Source: Planctomycetota bacterium (GTDB lineage: Bacteria; Planctomycetota; Planctomycetia; Gemmatales; Gemmataceae). From it: 64,000 bases of DNA. The stretch lies in NCBI GenBank assembly GCA_021413735.1, contig JAIOPV010000209.1:1-64000 (forward strand), in the 5' to 3' direction. The notes under the pieces are model-generated. The model was not told the DNA's origin and made no database searches. It saw nothing but the letters and a program-made list of their open reading frames with translations. Below, piece after piece: positions 16,213 through 51,443 of the stretch; within the stretch, counting starts at the first letter, position 1, and each line of letters begins with the position of its first letter. The position numbers were made by a program, and so were the translations under genes.

Positions 16213-16264
16213 GACGATAGGCCAAGCCGGCCAAGCCCCCTCACCCGGCTCGCAAAGCCTCGCC

Positions 16265-16381
16265 GACCTCTCCCCGCAAAGCCGGGGCGAGGTGGCCGCT
16301 GCTTCTCTTCAGCGAGAACCAACCCATTGCTTCCGAGGAGGCCAATCACCCCACCTCGCCCCGGCTTTGCGGGGAGAGGTC
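16265..16381. repeat. 31-bp perfect inverted repeat pair
   Basis: Arms 16265-16295 and 16351-16381 are exact reverse complements (core CTCCCCGCAAAGCCGGGGCG), each arm itself partly palindromic, with a 55-nt loop. The flank 'CCCCTCACCCGGCT' resembles the inner part of the element inside queA (47342-47480). It fills most of the gap 16213-16554, which has no gene. Confidence 0.8.
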
Positions 16382-16554
16382 GCGACGAGTCTTCGAGGCG
16401 CGGGGAGGGGAAACACCTCGCTCAAGTACCAGTTACGATGTCGATCATTTCGCCATCAGTTCTTGGGTTTTCAGGCTGAAAGGCTGTGGCACACACGCCG
16501 ACCGCATTCTAAACTTGAGCATCTCGTTTCGCCAGACGCTCGGAGTCATCGCTC

Positions 16555-47116: not shown

Positions 47117-48277
47117 TCACAGCACCAGCATGGCGTCGCCGTAACTGTAGAAACGATACTCGCGGGCCACGGCATCAGCATACGCCGTCCGCAGCAATTC
47201 CGAGCCTGCCAACGCGCTGACCAAGAGCAAGAGCGTCGTGCGTGGCAGGTGAAAGTTCGTGACCATCGCATCGACCACGCGAAACTCAAACGGCGGCAGT
47301 ATGTACAAATCCGTCTCGCCGCAGAAGGGCCGAAGTGCGTTTTTGCCCTCTCCCCTTGCGGGAGAGGGTGGCGAGTCTTCGAGCCGGGTGAGGGGTAATC
47401 GCTTTGCCATCTCTTGAGCTTCACCCCTCACCCGGTCAGCGAAGCGCTGACCACCCTCTCCCGCAAGGGGAGAGGGCAAATCCAAGCCCGCACGAGCGGC
47501 ACTTTCGAGCGTGCGGGTCGTCGTTGTGCCAACTGCGATCACACGGCCATGACGAGCCTTTGCGGCGTGAATCGCATCGACGGTTGATTGCGTCACCTCA
47601 CACCATTCGCGATGGATGACGTGCTTCGTTGGGTCTTCGACCTTCACCGGAAGGAATGTCCCGAGGCCAACGTGAAGCGTCACTCGCGCCGTTTCGATGC
47701 CGCGTGCTGCGAGGCGCTCGAACAACTCGGGCGTGAAGTGCAAGCCTGCCGTGGGTGCCGCGACTGAACCGACGTGTGCTGCGTAAACGGTCTGGTAGCG
47801 TTCCTCGTCCTCGTCGCTGGCGGTGCCCTTCCGAATGTATGGCGGCAACGGGATGTGTCCGTACTGGGCGAGCAACACCGCAGGCGTGCCCGCCGTTCCA
47901 GGTTCCATCAGCCAGTGACGTTCCTCGGTGCGTCCGCGAAGCGTGAGGCGAAGCCCCGTATCCGTGACGAAGACGCTGCCCACTTCGGGGTAGCTGCGAG
48001 TCTGCGCGAGCATTTCCCACAAGCCGCCGATGAGTCGCAGAAACAGCCCTTCCCACTTTCCGCCGGTCGATTCACGCCGCCCAACGACGCGAGCCGGCAG
48101 AACCTTCGTGTCGTTCAGCACGAGCAGGTCGCCGGGATTGAGCAAGTCGGGAAGATCGCGGAACGTGCGGTGTTCGAGTGTGCCCGTGTCGCGACGAAAC
48201 ACGAGCAAACGCGACTCGTCACGCTTTGCGGCCGGGTGCTGTGCGATCAGATGTTCAGGAAGATCGAAGTCAAACAC
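47117..48277 (-). CDS. queA: S-adenosylmethionine:tRNA ribosyltransferase-isomerase
   Basis: About 386 residues. QueA transfers and isomerises the ribosyl part of S-adenosylmethionine onto preQ1 in tRNA to form epoxyqueuosine. 'FDFDLPEHLIAQHP', 'LLVLNDTKVLPARVVGRR', 'VGSVAAPTAGLHFTPEL', 'THVGLGTF'-like 'LHVGLGTFLPV' and 'VTNFHLPRTTLLLLVSALAG' are diagnostic. Near residues 275-320 a segment ('LPSPLAGEGGQRFADRVRG...PSPARGEGKN') interrupts the conserved 'GTTTTRTLE' to 'GETDLYI' region; it comes from an inverted repeat at 47342-47480. The start is uncertain: GTG 48277 fits the family; a longer frame to ATG 48355 runs through another palindromic repeat. Confidence 0.9.
   Translation of the reverse strand: MFDFDLPEHLIAQHPAAKRDESRLLVFRRDTGTLEHRTFRDLPDLLNPGDLLVLNDTKVLPARVVGRRESTGGKWEGLFLRLIGGLWEMLAQTRSYPEVGSVFVTDTGLRLTLRGRTEERHWLMEPGTAGTPAVLLAQYGHIPLPPYIRKGTASDEDEERYQTVYAAHVGSVAAPTAGLHFTPELFERLAARGIETARVTLHVGLGTFLPVKVEDPTKHVIHREWCEVTQSTVDAIHAAKARHGRVIAVGTTTTRTLESAARAGLDLPSPLAGEGGQRFADRVRGEAQEMAKRLPLTRLEDSPPSPARGEGKNALRPFCGETDLYILPPFEFRVVDAMVTNFHLPRTTLLLLVSALAGSELLRTAYADAVAREYRFYSYGDAMLVL
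47342..47480. repeat. palindromic element inside queA
   Basis: Arms 47342-47371 and 47451-47480 are perfect 30-bp reverse complements (core CTCCCCTTGCGGGAGAGGG). Inside, CCGGGTGAGGGGT and ACCCCTCACCCGG form a nested pair. The 139-bp element is read through by queA without a stop. Confidence 0.85.
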
Positions 48278-48324
48278 GAGGGGATCACAGTTTCGGACGC
48301 GGTGCAGCGGTCGCCTCTGCTTGG

Positions 48325-48358
48325 TGAATGAGAACTCGGCAGGCCACGTTCTCATTCA
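48325..48358. repeat. 34-bp palindromic repeat, copy 2
   Basis: TGAATGAGAAC ... GTTCTCATTCA, the inverted counterpart of 13262-13295; the two differ at only a few central positions. It lies immediately upstream of queA and extends its open frame artificially. A second hairpin, GGCGGACCC-gtt-GGGTCCGCC, follows at 48371-48391 and may terminate the next minus-strand gene. Confidence 0.7.
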
Positions 48359-49453: not shown

Positions 49454-49644
49454 AGCCACGGATGAACACAGATGAAACATGGATAAGACCAAGACCGAAG
49501 TCAGCGGAACGAATCACAGAACCACAGAGAAAACAAGCCGAAGACAGTTTTTGAAAATTACACTCTCTCTGGTTGTCTCTGTGGCTCTGTGTCTCAATTC
49601 GGCTTTTGTCTTTATCCGTGTTTCATCTGTGTTCATCCGTGGCT
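49454..49644. repeat. nested inverted repeat, family 'GCCACGGATGAACACAG'
   Basis: Arms 49454-49486 and 49612-49644 match at 32 of 33 positions; the same 33-bp sequence forms both arms at 56706-56798. Inside it is a second pair, CACAGAACCACAGAGAAAAC facing GTTGTCTCTGTGGCTCTGTG. These repeats fill most of the gap 49343-49739 upstream of a glycosyltransferase gene; no gene is evident in it. Confidence 0.8.
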
Positions 49645-49739
49645 ACTCTTCGTTTTCTGAGATTTTCGGACTGCTCTCCCACCGTTTCCGGCTCTGGGTT
49701 ATCATCTTGCCGCCCAGCCAGCGCGAAATGGAGTTCGCC

Positions 49740-51443
49740 ATGCCGAGTCGCACCCGAGATTACGCTATCCTGTTGGCGGTAACCGCTACCCTCACGCTCC
49801 CGTACCTCGGCGGCGTCAGCCTTTGGGACGTCGACGAAGCCGTGAACGCACAGGCCGCTCGCGAGATGCGAGATGCCAACACATGGGTCATTCCAACATT
49901 CAACTACCAGCTTCGCACCGCCAAGCCGGTGATGCTGTACTGGCTTCAGCGAGTCAGCTACGCCGCGTTCGGTGTCAACGAGTGGTCCGCACGGTTTCCG
50001 TCGGTCATCGCGAGTTGGCTCATCGTACTGCTCACTTACGAACTCACTCGTCGGATGTTCGGTCGCAGCACGGCACTGCTCGCGGGGGTCGTGCTGGCAT
50101 CGGTGAGTCACTTTGCGGTGTTGGCACACGCGGCGACGCCCGACGCAACGTTGTTGCTGTTCACCACCCTGACGTATCTGGCGTTCTGGTCGCTGCATCA
50201 GAACGGCTCGCGTGCCTGGTGGATTCCCACCGCTGCGGCGTGTGGACTGGCAACGCTCACGAAGGGCCCCGTCGGCATTGCGTTGCCGGGGTTCGTGATC
50301 GTGATGTACTTCGCGTGGAACCGGGAACTTGGCCGGTTGCTCGATCGCAGGCTGTTCGTGTCGGCGGTGGTGTTCGTGTTCGTGGCTGTGCCGTGGTATG
50401 CGCTGGTGGCGAGTGAAACTCGCGGCGAATGGCTAACCGCGTTCTTCGGCAACGAGAACGTGAACCGCTTCCTGAATCCGATGGAAGGGCACCGCGGCGC
50501 ATTGTGGTACTACCCCGGCAGCATCATGTTGATGTTCATTCCGTGGTCGGCGTTCATCATCGCGGCCGTGTGGTATGGCGTGAAAGCAACTCGAGAACCT
50601 AACCCCCCAACCCCCTTCCCTAAGAAGGAAGGGGGAGCCGGATTTAGCCCCTCTCCCCTTGGGGGAGGGGTTGGGGAGGGGTCTTTCGTCACAGTTCGTG
50701 CCAATCGCTTATTGGTGTGTTGGGTCGTGGCGTATCTCGCGTTCTTCACGGTCGCAGCGACGAAGTTGCCGAATTACGTCTTCCCCGTGTATCCGGCGCT
50801 GGCGATTCTCATTGCTCGCTTCCTCGTCGCGTGGCGAGATGCCGAACTGACTGTGCCGCGTTGGTTGATGCCAGCGGGGGCGTTCGGACTGCTCATCGTT
50901 GGGGCTGTGGTTGCTGGCGGATTACTGGTTGGAGATGAAACATTCCCGGGCCTCGGTCGATGGGCCGCAATTGGGATTGTGCCCGCGATCGGTGGAGTCG
51001 GAATGGTGTGGTGCCTGCGACAAGAGCGCCGAAACGCGGCGATTCAGGTCGTGAGCGTCACGGCGATCGCGTTCGTTGCGTTGCTCGTGACATGGACGCC
51101 AAGGGTGTTGGAACGACAACGGGCGCCGCGTGAATTGGTGCGAGCAACGGGACTTGCCGACCCGACCCGTGATGTGCGAATCGCGACGTTCGAGTGGTTT
51201 CAGCCGAGCGTGGTGTTCTACACGGGGCGCGAAGTTGGAAGGCTCAACTCATCCGCTGCTGTCGGGGAGTTTCTGGCTGTGCCGACGCCCGGCTATGTGT
51301 TCGTGCCTGCCCCGGTGTGGGATGAACTCGCGGCGGACTTGCCTGGTCCGCGCCGCGTCATCGCGCGACACCATGACTTCCTGCGAAAGTGCGATGTCGT
51401 GGTGGTCACGAATGTACCCTCGGCGGATGTCGCTACGCGGTAA
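49740..51443 (+). CDS. GT39-family (ArnT-like) integral membrane glycosyltransferase
   Basis: 567 residues with about eleven hydrophobic segments. 'SLWDVDEAVNAQAAREM' (~29-45) holds the Asp-Glu of the GT-C fold, and 'QLRTAKPVMLYWLQRVSY' and 'ARFPSVIASWL' follow the ArnT pattern. The likely reaction is transfer of a polyprenyl-phosphate-linked sugar to lipid or glycan outside the membrane. Residues ~285-315 ('NPPTPFPKKEGGAGFSPSPLGGGVGEG') are an insertion encoded by an inverted repeat at about 50600-50682, falling in a loop between membrane segments. GGAG 6 nt upstream selects ATG 49740. Confidence 0.85.
   Translation: MPSRTRDYAILLAVTATLTLPYLGGVSLWDVDEAVNAQAAREMRDANTWVIPTFNYQLRTAKPVMLYWLQRVSYAAFGVNEWSARFPSVIASWLIVLLTYELTRRMFGRSTALLAGVVLASVSHFAVLAHAATPDATLLLFTTLTYLAFWSLHQNGSRAWWIPTAAACGLATLTKGPVGIALPGFVIVMYFAWNRELGRLLDRRLFVSAVVFVFVAVPWYALVASETRGEWLTAFFGNENVNRFLNPMEGHRGALWYYPGSIMLMFIPWSAFIIAAVWYGVKATREPNPPTPFPKKEGGAGFSPSPLGGGVGEGSFVTVRANRLLVCWVVAYLAFFTVAATKLPNYVFPVYPALAILIARFLVAWRDAELTVPRWLMPAGAFGLLIVGAVVAGGLLVGDETFPGLGRWAAIGIVPAIGGVGMVWCLRQERRNAAIQVVSVTAIAFVALLVTWTPRVLERQRAPRELVRATGLADPTRDVRIATFEWFQPSVVFYTGREVGRLNSSAAVGEFLAVPTPGYVFVPAPVWDELAADLPGPRRVIARHHDFLRKCDVVVVTNVPSADVATR
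50600..50682. repeat. palindromic element inside the second GT39 gene
   Basis: AACCCCCCAACCCCCTTCCC (from 50600) and GGGGGAGGGGTTGGGGAGGG (to about 50682) face each other, with CCTTCCCTAAGAAGGAAGG and CTCCCCTTGGGGGAG hairpins inside. It remains open in the glycosyltransferase frame. Confidence 0.75.

Follow-up and report, generated by a model that had tools for sequence, protein, structure and literature searches.

A dispersed palindromic repeat that probably persists in conserved genes of a Gemmataceae genus as an in-frame polar loop

The queA gene in the stretch of 64,000 nucleotides analysed here (hereafter the window) carries an in-frame insert that looks like a copy of a dispersed palindromic repeat, predicted to be translated as a polar, disorder-like loop of about 45–49 residues. 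The explanation that we favour, and hold to be quite probable, is that of a dispersed non-autonomous palindromic repeat which would persist in genes only as a polar, disorder-like loop in the frame that reads Pro-Ser-Pro (PSP frame). The features concerned are the following.

47117..48355, minus strand: queA, tRNA preQ1(34) S-adenosylmethionine ribosyltransferase-isomerase, 412 aa, with the frame running open through the insert
47339..47485, minus strand: inserted DNA, 147 nt net relative to queA of genome G008, exact ends placed by alignment, 8 and 6 nt lying beyond the 133-nt core
47342..47371, plus strand: left terminal inverted repeat arm, 30 nt (inverted-repeat scan)
47451..47480, minus strand: right terminal inverted repeat arm, 30 nt (inverted-repeat scan)
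47346..47394, plus strand: first putative triplex motif, made of CCCTCTCCC, a 5-nt loop, GGGAGAGGG, a 17-nt loop 2 and GGGTGAGGG, 9/9 triads
47425..47476, minus strand: second putative triplex motif, in inverted orientation, its 20-nt loop 2 forming a hairpin of its own, 9/9 triads
50601..50684 (approximate), plus strand: second, different palindrome-like insert, read NPPTPFPKKEGGAGFSPSPLGGGVGEG, in an ORF matching PMT_2
50648-50681: triplex motif with a 2-nt loop 2 in the insert of the PMT_2 ORF (perfect triplex-motif scan)

Profile searches identify the interrupted ORF as QueA (NCBIfam equivalog, E 3.4e-128; Pfam Queuosine_synth, residues 28–411). A sequence-only reading had noticed a palindrome within queA and a frame that runs on to a normal C-terminus. 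Both hold: the 30-bp arms that bound 47342-47480 are 100% complementary and 79 nt apart, the gene is an open frame of 412 codons and the Pfam match extends to residue 411. Among the PDB relatives found by phmmer are 1vky and 1yy3 (S-adenosylmethionine:tRNA ribosyltransferase-isomerase) and 1wdi (hypothetical protein TT0907), and in two of the PDB alignments the query is interrupted at residue 286–287, resuming at 334–342. The best comparison is offered by G008, which is the closest by sequence among the insert-free QueA proteins and the sister of the window's own genome (G000) in the tree. Where the window has AARAGLDLPSPLAGEG...PSPARGEGKNALRPF, G008 has AARSGELKPF, and the net gain of 147 nt (49 codons) is composed of 8 nt, a core of 133 nt and 6 nt, the inserted peptide being read LDLPSPLAGEG...PSPARGEGKN. 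Thus, the insertion of some 45 extra residues claimed earlier was seen, with 49 codons as its net figure against G008. The accompanying idea that RTLESA normally runs directly into DLYILPP was wrong, since relatives carry a short loop of variable length there (for example AARSGELKPFSGET in G008). Placement in the catalytic region is likewise unsupported, QueA modelled with AlphaFold from one sequence having reached a mean pLDDT of only 36.8. When the minus strand of 47330-47492 was folded, z scores of −11.35 (RNA) and −12.06 (DNA) were obtained, and none of 200 shuffles did as well in either case. Nothing in the window reached an Rfam gathering score; near the element there were four sub-threshold matches, the best of which, sX5, scored 24.5 bits where 50 is the gathering score. 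The viral contigs searched for QueA gave no relative. The effect of the insert on QueA would likely be neutral or slightly harmful.

What kind of element is it? Judged by its predicted pairing, it is built of two potential intrastrand-triplex motifs, inverted relative to each other, in which loop 2 has been enlarged into a covarying hairpin. Across the family, a half-element consists of CCCTCTCCC, a loop of 4–6 nt, GGGAGAGGG, a loop 2 of 17–26 nt and GGGTGAGGGG. Of 270 halves, 259 could be read, and 223 of them have 9/9 antiparallel purine triads. Among 37 distinct 18-nt forms of loop 2, 88% of the cells are paired and 33 cells have changed on both sides, either level being reached in 0 of 1000 shuffles; 13 further pair types were seen, a number reached in 3 of 1000 shuffles, and pairing falls to 32–42% when the partner is slid out of register. 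Some of these hairpins contain GAGTC and others lack it, and the majority flank before the hairpin is GTTTTT, with C also common at some positions. Perfect 9-triad motifs occur at two places in the 64 kb, the queA element and 50648-50681, and at none in five mononucleotide shuffles. The first reading had spoken of three similar cases in the window; the perfect triplex-motif scan, with its two places, did not confirm them as such.

The element is far from unique. At least 40 distinct places in its own genome were recovered from 79 matches to the 139-nt query, 40 of 161 candidates having been scored, and there are probably further copies beyond these 40. A 23-nt arm pattern with up to three mismatches matched the same genome 65 times forward and 72 times in reverse, and its reversed control never. 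At the genus level, 16 of 19 genomes match the element and, at the phylum level, the half-element pattern was found in 16 of 392 genomes, several with a single match (the own genome is included in both counts; the reversed control gave one match in each of three phylum genomes). The repeat family that the first reading had proposed is thus borne out, as the element recurs in its own genome and, in frame, in other genes. These in-frame copies also bear on the suspicion of an assembly or binning artefact, for which one could invoke the draft state of the own genome (293 contigs). They are present in other assemblies, for instance seven in G013, an assembly of four contigs, and in many different genes, and we regard an artefact as extremely improbable. 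In the collection of named genomes at least 120 stretches contain the half-element pattern, and the 80 of them that are listed are, by title, mostly from Alphaproteobacteria (Bradyrhizobium, Caulobacter, Devosia, Azospirillum, Sphingomonas), together with Gemmataceae, Singulisphaera, Acidobacteria, Chloroflexi and others. Only 2 of the 96 matches in these 80 loci passed a coding filter based on G013 codon usage, and the PSP frame is read in both of them: one in an Lhr-type helicase of a Hyphomicrobiales MAG and one, a half element, in a SpoU methylase of a Gemmataceae MAG (loci L275 and L263). Within sight of this G013-model filter, genic copies are apparently rare in the named-genome sample.

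Several single copies deserve mention. L009 and L010 are two copies with nearly identical flanks, and therefore a larger stretch has been duplicated in the genome. Solo hairpins in L366 (2020-2042) and L367 (2003-2025) keep the two outer ends of a full element, as though a deletion between its two hairpins had removed the middle. In L372 (1980-2232) another palindrome (GGCCGCCACGGAGGGCGGCC...) is nested within an element copy.

To see where copies lie, we fetched 138 from five genomes (40 each from G000 and G013, 20 each from G015 and G004 and 18 from G012), a sample biased to good matches because it was drawn from ranked and in part truncated listings. Both ends were found for 135, L081, L083 and L178 being dropped. 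According to a simple and rough codon-usage gene finder, in which the class 'inside' demands an open frame by construction, 102 lie between genes, 28 inside open genes and five over gene ends. Genic copies number 7 in G000, 7 in G013, 9 in G015, 5 in G004 and 0 of 18 in G012. Another two copies of G000, L081 and L374, are also genic and in frame but stand outside the 28. Of the intergenic copies, 100 are flanked by a gene on either side; the two neighbours converge in 22 cases and diverge in 4, and facing 3′ ends lie closer than facing 5′ ends (median distances of 43 and 74 nt, respectively), a preference that fits a terminator-like or 3′-tolerated position. Pfam families were matched in 25 of the 28 genic hosts (L115, L161 and L182 had no match). 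With names read from the Pfam domains, these hosts are as follows.

QueA, RNB protein (RNase R-like), RNase H-like, squalene-hopene cyclase (twice), P-type ATPase
ATP-grasp protein, RsmB-like, polyketide synthase, Lnt-like, aldehyde dehydrogenase (twice)
AMP-binding enzyme (acyl-CoA synthetase, twice), molybdopterin oxidoreductase, MFS/spermine synthase protein
MutL, SNF2 helicase, SMC (twice), GT87, TPR protein, MnmE, helicase, WaaP-type kinase

Four host genes (SMC, aldehyde dehydrogenase, acyl-CoA synthetase and squalene-hopene cyclase) occur twice as homologues, so the 28 genic copies are not independent cases. The earlier suggestion that the repeat may invade genes without killing them rests on the open frames and the Pfam matches.

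The genic copies share one reading frame. All 28 read CCC TCT CCC as Pro-Ser-Pro (PSPLAGEG..., frame 1), L161 and L176 keeping this frame in the left half only. Under an alternative rule based on spanning ORFs, which selects a slightly different set, 27 of 28 use it; the exception, L164, lies in an ORF of 259 aa with weak scores and is intergenic under the codon-usage classification. Openness alone was rejected as the cause of this choice, because frame 2 proved to be open no less often than frame 1 in those intergenic copies whose length class is frame-compatible (24/44 and 20/44 strands, respectively, with 8/44 for frame 0). Genic peptides have a mean net charge of −1.0 and the fewest order-promoting residues, versus mean charges of +2.9 (n=91), +6.1 (n=114) and +6.5 (n=21) for open intergenic frames 1, 2 and 0, the intergenic side mixing all length classes. 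The single frame and the charge difference are taken here as signs of selection on the encoded peptide, with a bias in target phase as the alternative. The length of the core is also particular: it equals 1 mod 3 in 25 of 28 genic versus 22 of 102 intergenic copies and, by length arithmetic, losing one hairpin together with the middle would preserve the frame in those 25.

It might be asked whether the insert has been domesticated, either through a structure in its mRNA or DNA that would slow translation or transcription where two domains meet, or through a role of the peptide itself. The coding-strand structure is indeed very strong and the triplex positions are almost invariant, which would suit such a role, although near-perfect copies may simply be young. 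Weak support comes from domain positions: for 24 of the 25 hosts with Pfam matches, inserts fall within a Pfam stretch in 8 cases versus 15.1 expected, a depletion that is smaller in reality, since the SMC limits are approximate and the aldehyde dehydrogenases, judged by their best stretch, were counted as outside even though the inserts interrupt the match. What argues against domestication is that the host genes are functionally unrelated and that most members of the genus were read without a queA-type repeat in QueA and SMC. We therefore consider it very unlikely.

QueA itself was found in 57 of the 59 genomes searched, own included, and the loop was read in 30 loci (own and G004 included), 18 of them from the genus. 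The comparison with orthologues that the sequence-only reading had proposed turned out in its favour: family material occupies the loop in 4 of the 18 genus members, as a full element in G000 and G015, a half element in G003 and one hairpin in G004, placed between GTTTTG and GAAAATAC, and the nearest relatives have no insert. G016 has a few extra residues at the loop. A single ancient insertion into queA, inherited in the genus, lost exactly in most lineages and homogenised by gene conversion in the survivors, would account for four species with family material at one QueA loop. It would also suit the aldehyde dehydrogenase copies of G013 and G004, which share a place (304–348) and a core length of 130 and look vertical, and the acyl-CoA synthetase copies of G013 and G015, which share a place too. 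However, in a tree of QueA plus SMC the three lineages nearest G000 (G008, G013 and G014) all lack the QueA insert, G015 and G003 lie on other branches and G001, the sister of G004, has none (the G000–G008 split has a support of 95; several deeper nodes have 22–60). Moreover, the end points of the insert differ by codons among G000, G015, G003 and G004. On these comparisons, separate gains look simpler than one gain followed by many exact losses, and the ancient insertion seems unlikely to us; the QueA insert was probably gained more than once and then shrank in frame.

The hinge of SMC provides a second case, and it too speaks against a single ancient insertion. From the reading of the peptides, G004 and G015 hold the queA-type repeat there in opposite orientations, and other species have other inserts: Pro/Gly-rich, repeat-like ones in G001, G007, G009 and G012, and one starting like part of the queA repeat family (PSPLAGEGGEALRAG) in G013. 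The remaining alignable sequences have short variable hinge loops. This survey covers 19 genomes, of which two gave no match, G008 matched in the element only and G016 and G009 are fragmentary. A third case is the PMT_2-matching ORF of the window, whose 11 aligned relatives show varied inserts or none at the same loop. In QueA, SMC and a PMT_2-family protein, then, these alignments show the same loop occupied by different inserts in different species. Regarding the PMT_2 ORF, it is listed from 49479, a start overlapped by AGCCACGGATGAACACAGATG inverted repeats (49454-49644), and its true start is probably near 49728.

How would such copies arise? In the mechanism that we propose, the repeat would spread through a transposition-like route, and an insertion into a gene would be retained only if its net length and its frame yield a polar, disorder-like peptide at a loop or linker that tolerates it. 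Tolerant loops would be struck repeatedly, and the element could later become shorter without loss of frame, since the two hairpins it contains can serve as direct repeats, giving forms such as the single hairpin in queA of G004 and the half element of G003. Across flank offsets and lengths there was no clear signal of a target-site duplication (largest excess identity 0.05), and in ten regions where the arms stand alone or at unusual distances no transposase was seen in the first 70 residues of the predicted ORFs. Mobility therefore rests on the dispersion of the copies.

One candidate for the mover is a RAYT (Y1 tyrosine) transposase, the element being then a REP-type repeat (REPIN). An inverted hairpin pair with no clear target-site duplication would fit a REPIN, and the own genome has 11 Y1_Tnp matches. 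However, the GTAG or CGTC tag is absent, the majority flank being the GTTTTT mentioned above, and no such hairpin was found at the 11 loci, within about 1.5 kb on each side (one locus is shorter). A RAYT origin was thus rejected on these flanks, and for the REPIN explanation as a whole we see a slim chance. Isolated arm-like 9–10-mers with one mismatch occur at 4 of the 11 loci. Just upstream of the Y1_Tnp genes of L096 and L097 there is apparently another repeat (translation GCASLHPWLPS.ALPG), and L095 is similar.

It is useful to set the element beside known repeats. According to reviews, coding palindromes are best known from Rickettsia, whose palindromic elements (Ogata 2000, 2002) measure about 105–150 bp and are intergenic as well as in frame in unrelated conserved genes (PMC10969869, PMC2229807). 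The queA element behaves like them, as the first reading had anticipated, lying in frame in unrelated genes and also between genes (28 of 135 copies in open genes, 102 intergenic, Pfam matches in 25 of 28 hosts). We do not class it as one. It belongs to another phylum, it has triplex motifs with a variable inner hairpin and the likeness is one of behaviour. Its architecture recalls the TMECO motif of E. coli, which Holder et al. (2015; PMC4666352) report to form a DNA triplex in vitro and to mark loci that are unstable. In that study, TMECO loops were searched at 1–6 nt, all 23 copies of strain MG1655 are intergenic and five inverted pairs exist in it (PMC4666352). The queA family has the TMECO stems CCCTCTCCC / GGGAGAGGG / GGGTGAGGG, three of 9 nt with allowed triads, whereas its loop 2 has 17–26 nt (17 and 20 here) and 28 of its 135 classified copies are genic. 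GTAG- and CGTC-tagged REPs and their dimers are palindromic repeats that also occur within coding genes, such as uvrA of O. terrae (Verrucomicrobia) (PMC3733652); in contrast, the queA element is longer, untagged and not beside the Y1_Tnp genes of its genome. RU-1, RU-2 and RU-3 (Delihas 2007), which were described in enterobacteria, resemble the queA family by description: they are small and mobile, contain open frames and lie in annotated genes (PMC2759123). The Caulobacter CIR (Chen and Shapiro 2003), of about 110 bp, with two hairpin arms and a linker, is abundant in Alphaproteobacteria and is reported as not intragenic, with stops in all six frames (PMC2229807). The queA-type architecture shares the two hairpins and also occurs in Alphaproteobacteria but, by that description of CIR only, the 28 genic copies with frame 1 open set it apart. 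CIR is also marked by a conserved GANTC, where the loop-2 hairpins of the queA family vary, GAGTC being present in some and absent from others. Like a MITE, the element is small, is bounded by terminal inverted repeats and encodes no transposase.

Here, many conserved genes in a genus outside the phylum of Rickettsia show Rickettsia-like in-frame palindromes. Neither coding triplex repeats nor coding palindromes are reported for Gemmata among the matches listed in open-licence literature, which is weak evidence of absence. Inspection of the window by itself missed the triplex-motif architecture, the presence of the element in other phyla, the use of one frame throughout and the way in which the same loops are occupied again in other species. 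Different inserts at the same loops amount to a countable natural experiment on insertion-tolerant protein loops and, with one frame in use, selection acting on repeat-derived peptides becomes testable. A bolder and tentative reading, which we think possible but doubtful, is that of a cross-phylum class of 'coding triplex elements': mobile triplex motifs in inverted pairs, with a sequence that selection would have shaped to be translatable. Many copies have the PSP...GEG frame open on either strand, and this frame stays in phase when only one hairpin is left, so that the element could enter, flip and shrink within conserved genes without breaking them. Were this reading true, genes would be a refuge for the element and a route of protein loop evolution.

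Two further repeats were noted. A second palindrome-like family (NPPTPFPKKEGG...PSPLGGGVGEG) is read in frame in the PMT_2 ORF, with further matches in long open frames of the own genome. At 16236-16410 of the window, about 20 nt past an apparent stop codon, there is a long imperfect inverted repeat of related look, with 60-nt arms that are 78% complementary.
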